Positions 23,297-41,261 of a DNA stretch of 49,589 nt are shown in pieces. The DNA lies in the NCBI GenBank assembly GCA_017483065.1, contig JAFULX010000091.1:1-49589 (forward strand). The letters are read 5' to 3'. Within the stretch, counting starts at the first letter, position 1; each line of letters opens with the position of its first letter. Made by a program: the position numbers and the translations under genes. Under the pieces are notes generated by a model. That model made no database searches, had not been told where the DNA came from, and worked only from the letters and a program-made list of their open reading frames with translations. This stretch comes from Clostridia bacterium. Lineage in GTDB: Bacteria; Bacillota; Clostridia; UBA1381.

Positions 23297-25150
23297 TTAT
23301 ACAATCCGCACCTTATAATGCCTGAACCACTCATCAATCTGTAAAAGATAGCCGATAAACTGCGGCATTGCCATCAGCTGACCGAAGAACGGCTTTCCGT
23401 AGTCGGACGCACCGTCCTTTGTGAGTGCGGTAAGTGCCCTTTTGTCGCAAAGTGCGGTCAGCGGTGTGTTCGGGTCGGAAATCAGGTCGGCAAGCCGTGC
23501 CTTGACCTCCTTCTCGTACTCGGGGTCGTGTGTTTTCGGGTACGGACTTTTTTTCCTGAAAAGCACATCATCGGACAACAAGCCCCGAGCCGCCTCACGC
23601 AGAATACTCTTTGACACATTTCCCTTATTCTTATACTCCCACGGAATATTCCACACATACTCCACCAGACGGTAATCGCAAAACGGCACTCTCACCTCAA
23701 GACCGCTCGCCATACTCATTCTGTCCTTGCGGTCGAGGAGATTTGACATAAACCATACAATATTAAGATAGGCAATCTCACGGCGGCGTGCCTCCTCGGT
23801 GCTGTCACCGTCAAAACGGGGTGTTTTTCCAACCGACTCGTCATACCTCTTTTGCGAATATGCGTCAAGGTCGAGAGTGGCGGCAACCTCGTCTTTAAGC
23901 ACGCTTTTGCGTAAGGACAGGTCATAGCACCACGGAAAATGCGGTGTGGCAAACGCCTTTTCATCACGAAACCACGGATAACCGCCGAAAATTTCGTCCG
24001 AACATTCGCCCGACAGAAGCACCGTGTGATTTTTCTTAATCTCACGGCAGTAATAATACAAAGACGCATCAACGTCCGCCATACCGGGCAAATCCTTGCA
24101 ATAGAGTGCAGGATACAAAAGGTCGGCAAGGTCACGGCGTGAGCATTGGAGTACGGTGTGGTTAGTGCCGCATTCCCTCGACACACGCTCCGACCACGGT
24201 GTATCGCTGTCAGGCTGAAAGGCGGTCGCCTTGAAATTCCTGTCATTGCCCACATAATCAAAGGAATATGTGGAAAGTGTTTTGCCCGAAAGTCCCATTT
24301 CACGGGCGGCGACGGCGGTTATCACGCTCGAATCAAGACCGCCCGAAAGCAGTGTTCCAATCGGCACATCGCTTATAAGCTGACGCTTGATTGCGTCCTC
24401 TAAAAGCTCACGTACCCTCAAAACGGTGTCCTCATAGCTGTCGGTATGCTCACGGCTTGCAAGCGACCAATACTCAAAATCCTTTATGCCGTTTCGGGAT
24501 ATTATCATACTGTGAGCAGGCTTCAGCTCGGATATTCCCCGAAACACACCGCACCCCGCCGTTCTTGCGGGCGACATTGCAAAAAGCTCGCAGAGACCGT
24601 CCCTGTCAACCTCGGGCTTGATGTACGGGTGGGCAAGGAGCGACTTAATCTCCGAGCCGAAAATCACCTCGACGTCCTTGATGCTGTAAAAGAGCGGCTT
24701 GACACCGAATCGGTCACGGCACAAAAATACCTGCTGTCGCATAGAATCCCAGACGGCGAAGGCATAAATGCCGTTAAGCTTTTCGGCACAAGCCTTGCCA
24801 TAGTGTATGTAGCACATCAGAAGTACCTCGGTATCGCACTCGGTGGTAAAGACGTATCCTCGCCGCATAAGGTCGCTTTTCAGCTCGGCGGTGTTGTAAA
24901 GCTCGCCGTTGTAGCAGATTACAAACTCGTGTCCCTCCACGGTACGCTTCATCGGCTGCTGTCCCTTTTCGGGGTCGATTACGGCAAGACGGCGGTGTGC
25001 AAATGCGGCGTGCTCGCCCACCCACTCACCGCAGGAGTCGGGACCTCTGGGAGTCAGCACCTCTGCCATCTCAAAAACTGTCAGGCGATGTGCCGCTTCA
25101 TTTTGCATCATATTTTCGCCGAAATTTATAAGACCTGCAATTCCGCACAT
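23297..25150 (-). CDS. asnB: Asparagine synthetase B, glutamine-hydrolysing
   Basis: 617 residues from ATG 25150; AAAGGA precedes it and this start places the catalytic Cys at position 2 (MCGIAGL) after Met removal. The N-terminal Ntn amidotransferase domain (1-200) has RGPDSCGEW, AFAHRRLAVID and YNGELYNTAEL. The synthetase domain has the PP-loop LLSGGLDSSVITA and the SGECSDEIFGGY motif. It makes asparagine from aspartate, glutamine and ATP. Related lasso-peptide cyclases exist, and a small peptide gene lies divergently next door, but no leader peptidase is seen and the enzyme looks canonical. Confidence 0.95.
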   Translation of the reverse strand: MCGIAGLINFGENMMQNEAAHRLTVFEMAEVLTPRGPDSCGEWVGEHAAFAHRRLAVIDPEKGQQPMKRTVEGHEFVICYNGELYNTAELKSDLMRRGYVFTTECDTEVLLMCYIHYGKACAEKLNGIYAFAVWDSMRQQVFLCRDRFGVKPLFYSIKDVEVIFGSEIKSLLAHPYIKPEVDRDGLCELFAMSPARTAGCGVFRGISELKPAHSMIISRNGIKDFEYWSLASREHTDSYEDTVLRVRELLEDAIKRQLISDVPIGTLLSGGLDSSVITAVAAREMGLSGKTLSTYSFDYVGNDRNFKATAFQPDSDTPWSERVSRECGTNHTVLQCSRRDLADLLYPALYCKDLPGMADVDASLYYYCREIKKNHTVLLSGECSDEIFGGYPWFRDEKAFATPHFPWCYDLSLRKSVLKDEVAATLDLDAYSQKRYDESVGKTPRFDGDSTEEARRREIAYLNIVWFMSNLLDRKDRMSMASGLEVRVPFCDYRLVEYVWNIPWEYKNKGNVSKSILREAARGLLSDDVLFRKKSPYPKTHDPEYEKEVKARLADLISDPNTPLTALCDKRALTALTKDGASDYGKPFFGQLMAMPQFIGYLLQIDEWFRHYKVRIV

Positions 25151-25179
25151 CAAAATCAATCCTTTCACAAAGCTTATTA

Positions 25180-25263: not shown

Positions 25264-25292
25264 TTGACATTTTTTATAAAGTTTTATATAAT
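25264..25292 (+). promoter_or_regulatory. Perfect consensus promoter of the 47-residue peptide gene
   Basis: TTGACA (25264-25269), exactly 17 bases, TATAAT (25287-25292). Both hexamers match the sigma-A consensus fully, predicting strong constitutive transcription starting near 25299. Confidence 0.88.
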
Positions 25293-25327
25293 TAACTTAT
25301 GAAATTTGAAGAAAAGGAGGTGTTTGT

Positions 25328-25471
25328 ATGAAAAAGACATATGCAGAACCCGAGATTAAGGTATCAGGCTTTGACGTTGATGATGTTATCACAACCAGCA
25401 TTACCGTAAACGTTGATCCTTGGGGTAACGGCGGTACTATAATCGGCGGAGAAGCAGAGGAAGTAGGCTAA
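25328..25471 (+). CDS. Small peptide, possible RiPP-like precursor
   Basis: 47 codons. The start has an ideal ribosome site (AAAAGGAGGTG, spacing 6-7), the promoter is perfect and a terminator follows 12 bases after the stop, so this is a compact, strongly expressed unit. The peptide has a basic then acidic first half (MKKTYAEPEIKVSG, FDVDDVITTS) and a Gly-rich second half (NVDPWGNGGTIIGGEAEEVG). The layout KK-Y-x-x-P-x-x-x-V...DVITTS resembles many short unannotated clostridial peptides and the leader-plus-core plan of ribosomal peptides. There is no signal sequence, Cys or membrane segment, and no modifying enzyme or exporter nearby. I do not know its function. Confidence 0.75.
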   Translation: MKKTYAEPEIKVSGFDVDDVITTSITVNVDPWGNGGTIIGGEAEEVG

Positions 25472-25483
25472 TAAGCTATGATT

Positions 25484-25517
25484 ACAGCAGGCGGAGTTTT
25501 CGCATGCTGTTTTTTTT
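25484..25517 (+). terminator. Terminator of the small peptide gene
   Basis: ACAGCA (25484-25489) pairs with TGCTGT (25505-25510), extended inside by GCG with CGC, then eight T (25510-25517). Confidence 0.9.
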
Positions 25518-28979: not shown

Positions 28980-29225
28980 ATGCCGAATATCAGACCTGTT
29001 TCGGATTTAAGAAATTATGCGGAGGTTTTGAAGGAAATCTCATTTGACGAGCCTGTTTTTCTTACCAAAAACGGCAGAGGACGTTACGCCATTGTTGATA
29101 TGGAAGAATACGAAAAGACAAGAGCGATTATTAAGCTTATGGGGAAGCTTTCCGAGGCTGAAAAGTCGGTAAAGGAGAGCGGCTGGATATCTAATGATGA
29201 TGTCAAAACTGCTTTGGGGGTATAA
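28980..29225 (+). CDS. Antitoxin of the Phd/YefM family
   Basis: 81 residues with AAAGGAGG upstream. The N-terminal part is the YefM-like dimerisation and DNA-binding fold: PVSDLRNYAEVLKEI, then EPVFLTKNGRGRYAIVDMEEYEK, which is the strand-turn-helix core of this family. The C-terminal helix (about 50-81) should wrap the toxin. It starts the pair and its stop is two bases from the toxin start, the usual translational coupling. It probably represses its own promoter through the palindrome in it. Confidence 0.92.
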   Translation: MPNIRPVSDLRNYAEVLKEISFDEPVFLTKNGRGRYAIVDMEEYEKTRAIIKLMGKLSEAEKSVKESGWISNDDVKTALGV

Positions 29226-29227
29226 CA

Positions 29228-29560
29228 ATGGCAAAAATCCGCCTTTCGCCTATGGCTCTTAATGACCTTAAAGAAATAAAAAGTTATATTGAAAATGATT
29301 TGTCAAATCCCATAGCCGCAAAAAATGTAATTAAGCGGATAATCGACGATTACAACAAGCTGGAGATTTCGCCGTATATGGGAACACCGCTCTCTGCAAA
29401 AGTACCGTTTGAAACCGATTATCGGTTTATGGTCAGCGGAAATTATATTATATTCTATAAAGCTGATGAGGAATTTGTTTCAATTTACCGTATTTTATAC
29501 GGTCGCAGAGATTATATCAGGATTATTTTTGACGACATTTCAGATGAAGATGAAGAATAA
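29228..29560 (+). CDS. Toxin of the ParE/RelE superfamily
   Basis: 110 residues. The RelE/ParE fold is shown by LSPMALNDLKEIKSYIENDLSNPIAA in separate pieces: a beta strand then two helices with the DLKEIKSYI motif, followed by strands in DYRFMVSGNYIIFYKAD and FVSIYRILYGRRDY, whose YxVxxGRRDY-type end carries the basic residues found in active toxins. ParE members block DNA gyrase and RelE members cut mRNA in the ribosome; the GRRDY end is closer to ParE but this is not decisive. The tail is acidic (DDISDEDEE), an unusual extension. Confidence 0.9.
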   Translation: MAKIRLSPMALNDLKEIKSYIENDLSNPIAAKNVIKRIIDDYNKLEISPYMGTPLSAKVPFETDYRFMVSGNYIIFYKADEEFVSIYRILYGRRDYIRIIFDDISDEDEE

Positions 29561-29712: not shown

Positions 29713-32700
29713 TTGAAGCTTAAAATAATCCTTGTCCTTTGTATGCTTTCTGCGGTGCTGTTTACAACTGTATCGGCTGATACCGACACGCATTGGGCGG
29801 CAGAGCAGATTGCCGAGCTGAAAGCCGAGGGGGTAATGACAGGCGGTGCGGACGGCTTTATGCCCGACCGCAATATAACCCGTGCCGAGTTCGTATCGGC
29901 GGTAATAAGAGCAATAAAAGCCGAGCCTTCGGGCAGCGTCGGCAGATTTTCCGATGTTGACAAGAACAGCTTTTATGCACCATATATTGGACGTGCGGTG
30001 GAGCTTGGTCTGGTAACGGGCTTTGCTGACGCAACATTCCGCCCCGACAGCAGTATTACCCGTGAGGAGGCTGTTGTTGTGCTGTCACGTGCCTTTGGAT
30101 TTCTGTCGGGTTACACACTCGGCAGGGACTTTTCCGATTATTCCGAGCTGACCGACGGTGCTAAGGGTGCGGTTGCATACGCTTTGAAAGAGAAAATTAT
30201 ATCGGGTTATCCTGACAATACACTCCGCCCGAGAGGTACGCTGACCCGTGCCGAGGCGGCGGTGCTGATTTTGGGTGCAATGAATATTGAGGGAAGTGAG
30301 CCGGGCTTTATTATGGGCTATCCGAGGCTTGAGGCGGAGGGACTTTACGGTCATATGCGTCTTGAAATCAGCACAAATATGCCCTGTACCGTCTACTATG
30401 TCCTTCATAGCAGCGATATGCCGGGCATACCTGCAAAAATTACGATTACAAATCCGCTTGTCACGACTGTTGCGGCGAATAAGCGTGTTATCGGCGATAT
30501 TCGGGGCGAAATCGGCAATGCGTATAACATTTCACTCCTTGCGGTAACCCCTGACGGCAGAACGTCGAATGTGGTACAGCTTGAAAACGTCACGCCACGT
30601 CCTTACACCGAGGGCAGCGGTACGGCGGAATCGCCTTACGGCATATATACTGCCGAACAGCTTGATTTGGTGCGGTTTTTTCCCGACAAAGCCTTTGCAC
30701 TTAAAAGGGATATTATGCTTTCGGGCGAGTGGGAGCCGATTGAGGAATTTTACGGCAGCATTGACGGCGAAGGTCACAGAATTGACGGACTTTACGTTGA
30801 TACCGACCAAAGCTATGCGGGACTTTTCGGCAAAATTGTAAAGGGTGAGATAAAAAATCTCACGGCACACGGCAATGTGCGTGCAAAATCAAATGCAGGA
30901 ATATTCGCAGGCGAGCTTCTTGACGCAAAAATTACCTCGTGCGTTGCCTCGGGCAGCGTTACTGCCGTTACCAACAATGCAGGCGGCTTTTTCGGCGAGA
31001 GTGCGGGCAGAATTGAAAACTCGCTGAGTGCCGTGTATGTTGTGGAGGCGAGTGCTTTTTCGGGCGGTATCGCAGGTCAAAACTACGGCATTATCCGAGG
31101 CTGTATTTCGGCGGCACATACCGTAACTGCGAATATGTACGCAGGCGGTATCTCGTCGGTCAATATGGTTGGCGGCAGAATTGAAAAGAGTGTTGCGGCG
31201 AACATCAACGTCTATGATATGATGCTCGATAACTGCGGCAGAATTACAAGCAATAAACGGGACGCTGTAACGAGCGGTAATTACGGATATTCGGGTATGC
31301 GGACAAGCTCGGACTCGGGCGTAAACGAGGCGGACAACAATAACGGTGCAGACCTCGGCTGGGAGGAGCTTATTGACCGCAAAAAGCTGTGCGAAATCCT
31401 CGGGTGGGAGGAAAAGCTGTGGAGCGGCGGCTCAAAAGCCGAAAGCTATCTGATACCGCACCCGACAGGTGCTTGTGTACCACGTCTTACGGCAGGTATC
31501 ACCGAATATGCACCCGTGCGTATAAGCCGTGCGGCGGAGCTTTTGGGTATGATAACCAACCCCGATATGCACTATCTTCTCATAAATGATATCAGCTTTG
31601 GCGGCAACGTACGCTGGAGCGTTGCGGCGGATACTCTTTTGGTCGAGGAGGGCTTTTCGGGTACGTTTGACGGCAACGGTCACACAATCCGCAATCTTTC
31701 TGTTACACGCTCACAAAACGGTCTTTGCGGTCTGTTCGGAATGATTTCGGGCGGTACTGTGCGGAATTTGCGGCTTGAGGACGTGACACTTTCGGGCGGT
31801 GAGCTTATCGGTGCGGTTGCGGCGGTAAGCTACGGCACAATCGATAACTGCATAGTCGAAAATCTGAAGGTTACTACCGACGAGGCAGACGCTTATATAG
31901 GCGGCATCTGCGGTTATAACTACGGTACTGTTACCAATACCGAGGTGACGGGCGACATTGTATCCGATGTCCGAAACACCGTCGCAGGCGGTATAACGGC
32001 ACATAATGAGGGCTTTATCAATAATACGGCATATAGAGGCAGTATCAGGACAAGCAAAACAGGTCTTGCCGAGTCGGTTGTCGGCGGTATCTGCGGCTAT
32101 AACAGCGGCGGTATGATTTATAATGCTTATGCCGCACCCGAGATAAGGCAGACGGCGACTACGATGTATTCGGGCGGAATATGTGCCATTCAGAGCGAGG
32201 GCGAGCTGTACAAATGCTCGTCAAAGGGCAGTATTGTCTGTGACAGCAATGAAAATACTGCGGTCAGCTATTCGGGCGGTATCAGCGGTCTTGCGGCAGG
32301 CGGTATCGTTATGCATACCTTTTCCTACTGTGACATCACACAGTACACCCCGAGGAGCTATTCGGGCGGAATATGCGGCTACAATGAGGCGGCGATTGTT
32401 CAGAACGGCTACTCTGGCGGCTCGCTGCTGCAAACGGCATCTGCGGCTTTTGCAGGCGGAATATGCGGCTATAACGAGGGCGGTGTGGTTGCGTCTGCCG
32501 TTGCCGTAAACCCGAGCATTACCTCGGACGGCATTGTGGGCAGAATTTGTGCGGCAGGCTCTGCGGACGGTATTTACTCCAACTATGCGGCACAAATGTC
32601 AATCAAGACTGACGGCGAGGGTGTACTCGGTGGTACAACGCTTGCCAAATCACAGCTGAACTATGCGTTTTTCACTATGCCCGTGTCAAACGGCGGTGCA

Positions 32701-32796
32701 CTCGGCTGGTCGGATGATATCTGGGTGAAATCAAGTATCCCGACGGCTGTAATGCCCGTTTTAGCGGACGTGAAGTATCAAACGGCGTTTTATTAA
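29713..32796 (+). CDS. S-layer homology protein with GLUG repeats
   Basis: 1027 residues starting at TTG (GGGAGTGA upstream). Signal peptide about 1-22 (KIILVLCMLSAVLFTTVSA). Three SLH domains follow at about 23-68, 77-128 and 139-190 (for example FRPDSSITREEAVVVLSRAF and SGYPDNTLRPRGTLTRAEAA), which anchor to pyruvylated wall polymer. After a linker come about 15 GLUG-type repeats of the form (A/S)GGICGYNxGxV...N, first around residue 350 and densest after 690; they probably form a beta-helix stalk. Near-identical DNA repeats occur in this part. Function is surface display; ligand unknown. Followed by the next SLH gene after 17 bases. Confidence 0.9.
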   Translation: MKLKIILVLCMLSAVLFTTVSADTDTHWAAEQIAELKAEGVMTGGADGFMPDRNITRAEFVSAVIRAIKAEPSGSVGRFSDVDKNSFYAPYIGRAVELGLVTGFADATFRPDSSITREEAVVVLSRAFGFLSGYTLGRDFSDYSELTDGAKGAVAYALKEKIISGYPDNTLRPRGTLTRAEAAVLILGAMNIEGSEPGFIMGYPRLEAEGLYGHMRLEISTNMPCTVYYVLHSSDMPGIPAKITITNPLVTTVAANKRVIGDIRGEIGNAYNISLLAVTPDGRTSNVVQLENVTPRPYTEGSGTAESPYGIYTAEQLDLVRFFPDKAFALKRDIMLSGEWEPIEEFYGSIDGEGHRIDGLYVDTDQSYAGLFGKIVKGEIKNLTAHGNVRAKSNAGIFAGELLDAKITSCVASGSVTAVTNNAGGFFGESAGRIENSLSAVYVVEASAFSGGIAGQNYGIIRGCISAAHTVTANMYAGGISSVNMVGGRIEKSVAANINVYDMMLDNCGRITSNKRDAVTSGNYGYSGMRTSSDSGVNEADNNNGADLGWEELIDRKKLCEILGWEEKLWSGGSKAESYLIPHPTGACVPRLTAGITEYAPVRISRAAELLGMITNPDMHYLLINDISFGGNVRWSVAADTLLVEEGFSGTFDGNGHTIRNLSVTRSQNGLCGLFGMISGGTVRNLRLEDVTLSGGELIGAVAAVSYGTIDNCIVENLKVTTDEADAYIGGICGYNYGTVTNTEVTGDIVSDVRNTVAGGITAHNEGFINNTAYRGSIRTSKTGLAESVVGGICGYNSGGMIYNAYAAPEIRQTATTMYSGGICAIQSEGELYKCSSKGSIVCDSNENTAVSYSGGISGLAAGGIVMHTFSYCDITQYTPRSYSGGICGYNEAAIVQNGYSGGSLLQTASAAFAGGICGYNEGGVVASAVAVNPSITSDGIVGRICAAGSADGIYSNYAAQMSIKTDGEGVLGGTTLAKSQLNYAFFTMPVSNGGALGWSDDIWVKSSIPTAVMPVLADVKYQTAFY
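32355..32480 (+). repeat. Near-identical coding repeats in the GLUG region
   Basis: GGCGGAATATGCGGCTA recurs at about 32365 and 32457, followed by AYAAYGAGG, and more diverged copies lie upstream (about 31900 and 32090). Such repeats can change in number by recombination or slippage. Confidence 0.7.
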
Positions 32797-32813: not shown

Positions 32814-35078
32814 ATGATAAAGAAAATTACGGCACTTGTTACCGCAATAGCGGTTTTGCAGACGTCCGCACTTGCGGCGGTACTCGGCAATGAGGTGCTT
32901 TCTTCAAAAAGCTATGACGTATCGGACGGTACGGTGCTTTATGAAAATAAAATAATGTCCGACCAGTCGGGCGTTGGTCAGCAAAGCGAGTTTTATGCAG
33001 AATATACACCGAATACCGATACAGTTCCCGTTGTTGTGAACGCTGGTGCGGTTTTCGGCAAGAAAACAGCGGCACAGGCGGCGGAATATATGAAAAATCA
33101 GGGCTTACGTCCGATGATAGGCATAAATGCGGCATTTTTCTCCTTGCAGACGGGTGTGACAATGGGACACGTTATATCCGAGGGACGTGTGGCGTCCAAG
33201 GATACCACCACATTGCAGGGAATCGGCTTTACCGAGGAGGGCGAGGCATTCATTGCACCGCTTAAAATCGGTGTGAATATTTCCACGGCACAGGGCGATG
33301 TCGGTGCGGACAACGTCAATAAATATAACGGTGCGGCACTTGCCTGCGTGTCCCTTTATACTCCCGATTACGGCGAAAACTTTCAGAATGAGGCGGAGGC
33401 TGTGACGGTGGTGCTTGACGTGGAGGATAACGAGCTGAAAATCGGCGGAGAATTTGAGGCAACGGTAAAATCGAGGGAGAATATCACGGGCGAAGTTCCG
33501 CTTGCCGAGGGCGAAATGGTGCTTGTCGTAAACACCGTGGGCAGCTATGAGTATCATTATAATCTGATGAACAGCTTAAATGAGGGCGATACAATCACAA
33601 TAACCTGTACCGCCGAGGGTGACGAACGGTGGGAAACGGCTGCCGAGGGACTTGCGAGTGTGGGCGAAACGCTCATTACGGGCGGTGAAATTGTCTGCGA
33701 TACCGTAAACGGTGCGGCTCCCCGTACTGCGGTGGGAATTACCGCAGAGGGCAAGGTCATTTTCTATGTGATTGACGGCAGACAGAAGGGCTACAGCTAT
33801 GGTGTACAATTACGCTCACTTGCAAAGCGTATGGCGGAGCTTGGCTGTGTTGAGGCGATTAACCATGACGGCGGCGGCTCGACCTCCATTTCGGGAGTGT
33901 ATCCAGGTGCGGACGATATTGCCGTTTTGAACTCACCCTCCGACGGCAAGCTCCGAGGTGTGGCGAATTTTATATTCCTGAAAAATACCAAGGAACGCAC
34001 CGATATACTCAAAAGCATTTACACCGTACCGCACGGCGAAAAATACCTGAGCGGTACAACTGCACAGCTTACGAGTGTCGGTATTGATACGGCATATTAT
34101 AAAACAGAGCTTGACAGTGTGGAATATTTTTCCGACGGTGAAAGCACCGTTTCGGGTGATATTGTAACCTTTATCGGCAACGGCACGGTGAATATCAGCT
34201 CAAAAAGCGGTGATGTGGAAACGACAAGCAAGCATTATGTCTACGATACACCCGACCAAATTGTTGTTAAGGCAGATTTAAGAGAGGTTACGGCAATGAC
34301 CGTCCCGAACGAAATGACGCTCGGACTTTCTGCCGTTGCGTATGTTGGCAATAGTCCGCTTATTGCCGATAAAAACCTGTTTGAATATACGGTTGAGGGT
34401 GATATCGGAAGTATAGAAAACGGCGTATTTACAGCATCGGCAGAGCGTACAACCGAGGGTGCGATTGTGGTCACGGCAGGGAAAACAAGCGTGAAAATTC
34501 CTGTCACCGTAACTAATGACAGCAATGTATTCGCCGATATTTCCGAGCATTGGGCAAGACCTATGATTGAAAAGGTTGCCGAGCTTGGTGCGATTAACGG
34601 TTATGAAACGGAGAACGGACTTGTATTTATGCCCGACAACAACATCACAAGAGCTGAATTTGCCGTTATGCTCGCAGGCTATTTAAAGCTTGACAAGGAC
34701 TCGTATCAGGAAAATGAACAGATTTTTGACGATGAAATTCCCGAATGGGCGAGGGGCAGTATAAATGCACTTTATTCGCTCGGCTATGTCAGCGGAAGAA
34801 CGGACGAAAACGGTGCGATTGTGTATGCACCCTCCGACAAAATCACAAGAGCCGAAGCTGCGGCGATAATCGGACGTGCAATGCAGCATCTCGATGCCGA
34901 GGCGGAGATTACCTTTGCGGATAGTGAAGAAATCCCGACTTGGGCGAGCGGCTTTGTGGCACGGCTTTTGGCGGCGGGAGTGCTGTCGGGCTATGAGGAT
35001 AATACACTGCGACCTGCCAATAATGTTACGAGAGCCGAAGCGGCGACTATGCTTTATAAGGTGTCGGCTATTAAATGA
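32814..35078 (+). CDS. Phosphodiester glycosidase (NAGPA family) with C-terminal SLH domains
   Basis: 754 residues. Signal peptide about 1-22 ending ALA. The catalytic-type region (about 60-395) has the NAGPA hallmarks GINAAFF, APRTAVGIT, FYVIDGRQKGYSYGVQL and INHDGGGSTSISG. In mammals this fold uncovers the mannose 6-phosphate tag; bacterial relatives act on phosphodiester-linked sugars, possibly of wall polymers. Ig-like strands follow (about 400-560), then three SLH domains (about 572, 637 and 699 onward, ending ITRAEAAAIIGRAMQ and VTRAEAATMLYKV). It shares a transcript with the SLH-GLUG gene and precedes LCP genes, fitting a role in wall glycopolymer turnover; substrate is inferred. Confidence 0.9.
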   Translation: MIKKITALVTAIAVLQTSALAAVLGNEVLSSKSYDVSDGTVLYENKIMSDQSGVGQQSEFYAEYTPNTDTVPVVVNAGAVFGKKTAAQAAEYMKNQGLRPMIGINAAFFSLQTGVTMGHVISEGRVASKDTTTLQGIGFTEEGEAFIAPLKIGVNISTAQGDVGADNVNKYNGAALACVSLYTPDYGENFQNEAEAVTVVLDVEDNELKIGGEFEATVKSRENITGEVPLAEGEMVLVVNTVGSYEYHYNLMNSLNEGDTITITCTAEGDERWETAAEGLASVGETLITGGEIVCDTVNGAAPRTAVGITAEGKVIFYVIDGRQKGYSYGVQLRSLAKRMAELGCVEAINHDGGGSTSISGVYPGADDIAVLNSPSDGKLRGVANFIFLKNTKERTDILKSIYTVPHGEKYLSGTTAQLTSVGIDTAYYKTELDSVEYFSDGESTVSGDIVTFIGNGTVNISSKSGDVETTSKHYVYDTPDQIVVKADLREVTAMTVPNEMTLGLSAVAYVGNSPLIADKNLFEYTVEGDIGSIENGVFTASAERTTEGAIVVTAGKTSVKIPVTVTNDSNVFADISEHWARPMIEKVAELGAINGYETENGLVFMPDNNITRAEFAVMLAGYLKLDKDSYQENEQIFDDEIPEWARGSINALYSLGYVSGRTDENGAIVYAPSDKITRAEAAAIIGRAMQHLDAEAEITFADSEEIPTWASGFVARLLAAGVLSGYEDNTLRPANNVTRAEAATMLYKVSAIK

Positions 35079-41232: not shown

Positions 41233-41261
41233 ATTATATCGTGCAGAGAAGAAAATGTCAA
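41233..41261 (-). promoter_or_regulatory. Perfect consensus promoter of glnA-pfp
   Basis: On the minus strand TTGACA (41261-41256), 17-base spacer, TATAAT (41238-41233). Both hexamers are exact. Start near 41226. Confidence 0.88.

Follow-up and report, generated by a model that had tools for sequence, protein, structure and literature searches.

A free-standing, separately promoted peptide gene of a Clostridia bacterium as the likely precursor gene of an LPP-like RiPP matured in trans

What can be made from a gene of only 47 codons that has its own promoter and terminator and no obvious helper nearby? The question is raised by a locus of about 250 bp in a 49,589-nucleotide stretch of DNA (the window, to which all coordinates refer) from a Clostridia bacterium whose draft genome comprises 243 contigs (2.06 Mb). 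The peptide gene is flanked by a divergent gene for asparagine synthase (23297-25168) and, downstream, by one resembling that of DNA polymerase III delta-prime (holB), and the original prediction was right that nothing adjoining the peptide gene would modify or export its product. The features of the locus are:

25264-25292, forward strand: sigma-70-type promoter TTGACA-17-TATAAT, exact consensus at 12 of 12 positions (TTGACA 25264-25269, TATAAT 25287-25292)
25314-25322, forward strand: exact ribosome-binding site AAGGAGGTG, with the start codon 5 nt downstream
25328-25471, forward strand: 47-codon precursor peptide gene MKKTYAEPEIKVSGFDVDDVITTSITVNVDPWGNGGTIIGGEAEEVG, ATG at 25328 and TAA at 25469-25471, assigned by family membership and by an operon-derived profile (E = 5.4e-12)
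25328-25399, forward strand: leader, residues 1-24, with Tyr5xxPro8xIle10 (a motif of the RRE-binding type), Phe15, ITTS and a nearly invariant Ser24, from alignments
25388-25402, forward strand: predicted processing region, codons 21-25 (I-T-T-S-I), placed by the near-invariance of Ser24, the exact cut being inferred
25400-25468, forward strand: variable core ITVNVDPWGNGGTIIGGEAEEVG, 23 aa, 26% Gly, one Trp, no Lys or Arg, no Ser
25484-25517, forward strand: intrinsic terminator, hairpin 25484-25510 (stems ACAGCA/UGCUGU and GCGGA/UUCGC) and T8 at 25510-25517

The exact promoter, exact ribosome site, 47-codon frame and hairpin-T8 terminator that had been described for this cassette are all found in the sequence, and on folding the hairpin reaches -13.9 kcal/mol (z = -2.7 against shuffles). 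The cassette had also been called rare in the window. This holds in so far as promoter matches with at most one mismatch number 4 against 0.28 expected from shuffles; the exact TTGACA-17-TATAAT, however, occurs twice, at 25264 (forward) and at 41233 (reverse), so that the promoter of the peptide gene is clearly above chance, yet not unique. The second copy (41233-41261, reverse strand) precedes an ordinary metabolic gene, which, judged from its start, we take to encode a type III glutamine synthetase. Elsewhere in the window are found two adjoining genes for SLH-domain surface proteins (29713-32796 and 32814-35078, both forward), one containing GLUG repeats, the other a phosphodiester glycosidase (NAGPA) domain, and a Phd/YefM-like antitoxin gene (28980-29225, forward), which narrowly misses the Pfam cut-off and precedes that of a ParE-family toxin (29228-29560, forward).

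Neither Pfam nor NCBIfam gives a match for the peptide or for the four family members that were tried. One relative is encoded elsewhere in the same genome, and a single-sequence search of 61 related genomes returned many weak matches of 40-90 aa that are alike in the first ~24 residues (best 1.8e-4), so that the family is evident only by profile. Alignment of 26 peptides gives the leader MKKxYxxPEIxIxxFxVEDIITxS, with Pro8 and Ser24 invariant; in the wider family the leader, again of ~24 residues, reads MKKxYxxPEIxIxxFxxEDIITxS, Pro8 and Ser24 are nearly invariant and the core is hypervariable. A leader-like half (from MKKTYAEPEIKVSG to DVITTS) and a Gly-rich, Trp-containing half had been proposed, and this division is borne out nearly to the residue: the mean normalised pair score across the family is 0.43 for residues 1-24 and 0.03 for the remainder, and after Ser24 the peptides vary freely in length and sequence. 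The profile search that had been suggested for so small a product recovers the window frame: a profile of 13 operon-adjacent precursors, none of them from the genus of the window, matches it at E = 5.4e-12. The runner-up among 515 window ORFs has a value of 2.9, and 5,000 self-shuffles reach about 0.007 at best. Differences among the leaders of similar members fall mostly at the third codon position (345, 293 and 698 at positions 1, 2 and 3). Family membership, the independent profile match and the third-position excess indicate, as far as sequence can tell, that the frame is real and coding; on the same kind of evidence the peptide is a member of a large, unannotated precursor family.

Of the 70 genomes from the family to which the bacterium belongs, 43 are positive for the leader profile, with up to 29 copies per genome on many contigs, and whole genera (e.g. 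g14) give zero matches. The presence/absence pattern of the peptide across these 70 genomes was used to search for partner enzymes. A stand-alone PqqD-type RRE of ~90 aa follows the same pattern (39/43 peptide-positive versus 6/27 negative genomes, 6e-9; four of the six negatives carry a different, longer PqqD type), and the genes around it led to an HprK-like P-loop kinase of ~235 aa (40/43 versus 2/27, p = 2e-13) and to a SipW/archaeal-type signal-peptidase-like protein of ~158 aa (38/43 versus 2/27, 6e-12). A PF14907 nucleotidyltransferase, present in 33 of the 70 genomes and nearly absent from the peptide-negative ones, follows a looser pattern. Within genus g10 the kinase is found in both peptide-positive genomes and in none of the three negatives. 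Two family genomes (G020 and G035) contain kinase, peptidase and RRE with no precursor detected; their precursors may have divergent leaders. The genomes are drafts, so that absences are partly due to incompleteness, and related ones are not independent. This concern is answered in part by a class-wide count over 220 genera (392 Clostridia genomes), in which the kinase is found in 51 of 52 leader-positive genomes and in 54 of the 340 others (p = 3e-33), or in 41/42 and 52/334, respectively, when the family of the window is left out. The match is imperfect in that the 54 leader-negative genomes still encode kinase-like proteins.

The genome of the window encodes all four enzymes, on other contigs and unlinked even to each other:

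contig C168: RRE (PF05402, E = 1.9e-16)
contig C73: HprK-like kinase (Walker A GTGKSTH)
contig C87: signal-peptidase-like protein (motifs GTSMLP, LHR and GDN)
contigs C56 and C38: PF14907 nucleotidyltransferases (two matches, 8.8e-35 and 2.2e-30)

None of the four lies within the 49.6-kb window, and no dedicated exporter was identified in this genome. A survey for linked modification genes had been recommended, naming radical SAM enzymes among others: linked genes are absent here, and the enzymes that came to light, elsewhere in the genome and, in other Clostridia, next to the peptide, are not of the radical SAM kind. GTDB genomes with the kinase yielded 80 named loci, nearly all from Clostridia (Oscillospiraceae, Lachnospiraceae, Ruminococcus, Herbivorax, Desulfotomaculaceae), plus one from a Paenibacillus; many have the order kinase-RRE-peptidase-ABC. 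In 14 of the 80 a peptide with the same leader was detected, usually just upstream (e.g. MKKNYNAPDFEVAEFEVEDIITLS in L208), giving the order peptide-kinase-RRE-peptidase, often with an ABC exporter, in L208, L210, L212, L213, L217, L252 and others, while in L125 (genome G029) the order is kinase-peptide-peptide-RRE-peptidase. An MsbA-like exporter is found beside many operon-type loci and in some family genomes, without one being assigned in the window's genome. At many loci of genera g15 and g11 (L096-L105 and similar) a gene for an SLH-domain protein of ~350 aa lies divergently beside the kinase-RRE pair.

As to the identity of the enzymes, the RRE profile matches the solved structures of TbiB1 (2.5e-9), PbaB1 (2e-7) and LppB (9x8z, 1.5e-6). 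By alignment, the Asn with which LppB fixes the kink at the leader Pro is kept in the RRE of the window's genome, and a Gly stands where LppB has the Asp that holds the Tyr of the leader. Sequence-only profile searches found no proper solved relative of the kinase or the peptidase, and fold comparison was therefore needed. The kinase model (pLDDT 95) has HPr kinase/phosphatase (HprK/P) as its top matches; the peptidase model (pLDDT 90) resembles UmuD', LexA and the type-I signal peptidases SpsB/SipA, i.e. the S24/S26 fold, with weak to modest E-values, and its sequence retains the Ser, His and Asp motifs (GTSMLP, LHR and GDN, respectively).

A comparable set of proteins is known from the linear polyphosphorylated peptides (LPPs), which were first described in 2026 with the lppA-K-B-S-D-N system of Paenibacillus alginolyticus, have been characterised from Bacilli and have no known function (PMC13381572). 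Their core set consists of RRE, HprK-like kinase, SipW-like peptidase, NTP transferase and exporter; the RRE delivers the leader to the peptidase, the kinase places several phosphates on the core Ser three residues past the cut, and the precursors, conserved at the N-terminus and variable at the C-terminus, have been reported at one to three per cluster, having been sought inside it or within 5 kb (PMC13381572). The likeness extends to the discrete PqqD-type RRE, the HprK-like kinase, the SipW/archaeal-type signal peptidase, the NTP transferase and the lack of a cyclase, and, in the precursors, to the conserved YxxPx[VI] motif of the leader, to hypervariable C-termini and to an invariant Ser that follows the Tyr by 18-19 residues (18 in the LPP motif, 19 from Tyr5 to Ser24 in the window peptide). 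The NTP transferase LppN is assumed here to be of the PF14907 family. The differences lie in the leader itself, YxxPxVLxHQxIxFETxxS in LPPs versus YxxPxIxIxxFxxEDIITxS here, with the Phe at Y+13 and Y+10, respectively, and neither LxHQ nor FET in the window peptide; in the scattering of the precursors (up to 29 per genome) away from unlinked enzymes; in the pairing of most of them with secreted proteins; and in the hosts, which are Clostridia. Thus, the window's genome meets the LPP criteria of RRE, HprK-like kinase, signal-peptidase-like protein and NTP transferase, whereas the peptide fails those of the published leader motif and of a precursor inside the cluster, and of the multiple core-Ser phosphates only the near-invariant Ser24 has a counterpart in the sequence. 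Because two criteria are failed, the peptide is treated as an LPP variant. In the literature, as far as open-licence papers go, nothing was found on dispersed LPP precursors or on their pairing with secreted proteins. Many scattered precursors served by one lanthipeptide synthetase are found in the prochlorosins of marine cyanobacteria. These share with the present family a single enzyme set, dispersed precursors, a common leader and diverse cores, and differ in leader, enzymes, chemistry and organisms.

Taken together, the operon-derived profile, the co-occurrence, the class-wide kinase count, the linkage elsewhere, the identity of the enzymes and the composition of the core make it likely, to our judgement, that this free-standing window gene with a promoter of its own encodes the precursor of an LPP-like RiPP that is matured in trans; no biochemistry is available, and each step, from binding and phosphorylation to cleavage and export, rests on inference. 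Against this reading stand the differing leader register, the Gly in place of the Tyr-fixing Asp of LppB, the imperfect match of leader and kinase, the two family genomes with enzymes and no detected peptide, the lack of an identified exporter, and the draft state and relatedness of the genomes. The guess of a modified peptide with a RiPP-like layout thus gains support as regards the precursor, no chemistry having been tested. One unlinked enzyme set would serve every precursor of a genome. The RRE is inferred to take up the leader as an extra beta-strand by way of Tyr5-x-x-Pro8-x-Ile10, a role deduced from the leader motif, from the co-occurrence of the RRE and from the published system (PMC13381572) without binding data, and would present the peptide to the kinase, which would phosphorylate Ser24, the likely phospho-acceptor. 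The signal-peptidase-like serine protease would then remove the leader within I-T-T-S, around I21-S24: either at I21/T22, by analogy with FET|AQS of the LPPs, or after T-x-S24, given the small residues at -3 and -1, both sites being inference only. A further group may be added by the PF14907 nucleotidyltransferase, and the exported product would be a short peptide of some 23-26 residues, rich in Gly and free of basic residues.

Most other precursors are arranged differently. Among 63 scattered precursors of the family genomes, 56 lie at most 70 bp, usually 0-26 bp, behind a gene on the same strand, which mostly encodes a secreted protein and is apparently co-transcribed with the peptide. As a loose signal-peptide rule also scored 32% of background pairs as positive, a stricter rule was used, on the longer loci only; by it 32 of 38 upstream partners, against 51 of 269 background pairs, carry a Sec-type signal and no further membrane segment (p = 3e-15). 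A C-terminal region of 85-130 aa with a beta-rich end is shared by 37 of 54 partners (iterated profile, E <= 1e-3), and when its profile was run on the 2,252 ORFs of all loci the new matches, among those inspected, lay mostly just upstream of precursors. The arrangement recurs in other families of the class, and one partner is a pectinesterase. At the scattered-precursor loci (L257-L296, L002-L031) the upstream secreted proteins are large, many with the shared C-terminal region, which belongs to no known family, and several precursors (L002, L011, L017) are followed by a conserved membrane-type protein of ~150-200 aa (MLRKLILLRFAEQTIICGIL...). Specific co-evolution of core and partner does not follow from a Mantel test: similarity among the partners correlates with that among the cores (0.22, p = 0.002), but also with that among the leaders (0.25, p = 0.002), which points to joint duplication.

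The window copy is the exception, free-standing behind its own promoter with no upstream secreted protein, and it could be supposed that its partner was lost, or that it was copied away from one, leaving a relic or satellite that makes no free peptide. The prevalence of pairing speaks for this, the other copy in the same genome (L002) and copies in sister genomes (L006, L007, L023) being among the paired ones; so does sister genome G002, where asnB adjoins holB with no peptide between, which means either a gain of the window copy in this genome or a loss in G002. A relic would, however, be expected to decay, whereas an exact promoter, an exact ribosome site and a terminator are maintained around the isolated frame. 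Its core, moreover, being short, Gly-rich and without Lys or Arg, is of the operon-linked type (87% of such cores lack Lys/Arg, versus 15% of paired ones). We therefore hold a relic to be unlikely, and the window copy probably makes a free peptide, like the precursors beside the enzyme operon.

That the product is an unmodified small protein, with a signal, structural or chaperone-like role, a leader-like half of other purpose and only an indirect association with the RRE, can still be argued from the lack of any observed product and from a leader unlike those of characterised LPPs and lasso peptides. It has very little to commend it against the near one-to-one co-occurrence of leader and kinase across 220 genera, the operon linkage and the pattern of conserved leader and variable core.

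Slightly less credible again is the view that the gene encodes the precursor of a lasso peptide, for which the divergent asparagine synthase (23297-25168) would serve as macrolactam cyclase. Lasso peptides (paeninodin and others of Bacillota) have a [Y/W]xxPx[L/V/I] leader motif that is bound by a PqqD-type B1, and paeninodin clusters also include an HprK-like kinase and an NTP transferase (PMC13381572). The window peptide has the matching Y5, P8 and I10, and lasso cyclases are asparagine-synthase homologues. The neighbour, however, retains the glutaminase Cys start MCGI and scores 499 bits as a glutamine-hydrolysing asparagine synthase, far above the cut-off, and 221 against a cut-off of 525 as a lasso cyclase, so that lasso membership through this gene was rejected. 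No macrolactam cyclase is linked here, family cores have no Asp or Glu fixed at ring distance (core position 7-9), and the co-occurring peptidase is SipW-like, not a B2 cysteine protease (B2 was not searched for). Finally, that the locus acts as an RNA with an incidental frame, as the strong promoter and hairpin within 250 bp might suggest and as an unconserved frame would have implied, can be dismissed as far as sequence allows, since the window has no Rfam match and conservation is at the peptide level, with a third-position excess.

The finding would widen the range of the LPP enzyme set to numerous Clostridia families, of which many come from animal guts, and, as precursors need not sit in the cluster, it implies that cluster-based genome mining misses most of them. 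It also offers a functional lead for LPP-type phosphopeptides, since the majority of precursors have a particular secreted protein as partner and probably act with it at the cell surface; for the product of the window gene, whose role is unknown, action at the surface or outside the cell is most likely, given that the greater part of its relatives form apparent operons with such proteins. Whether there is a general system of secreted protein plus RiPP companion in Clostridia, in which dozens of Sec-secreted surface or polysaccharide-active proteins, many with a common beta-rich C-terminal region, are each completed, anchored or activated outside the cell by a co-transcribed, RRE-dependent, phosphorylated peptide of their own, can only be put forward tentatively, the balance being at present somewhat against it. 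If true, the window peptide would be a partner-less member of that system, and RiPPs would have a new use as accessory parts of secreted proteins and not as diffusible natural products. One unlinked enzyme set acting on tens of diverse cores would also be a natural tool for peptide diversification.
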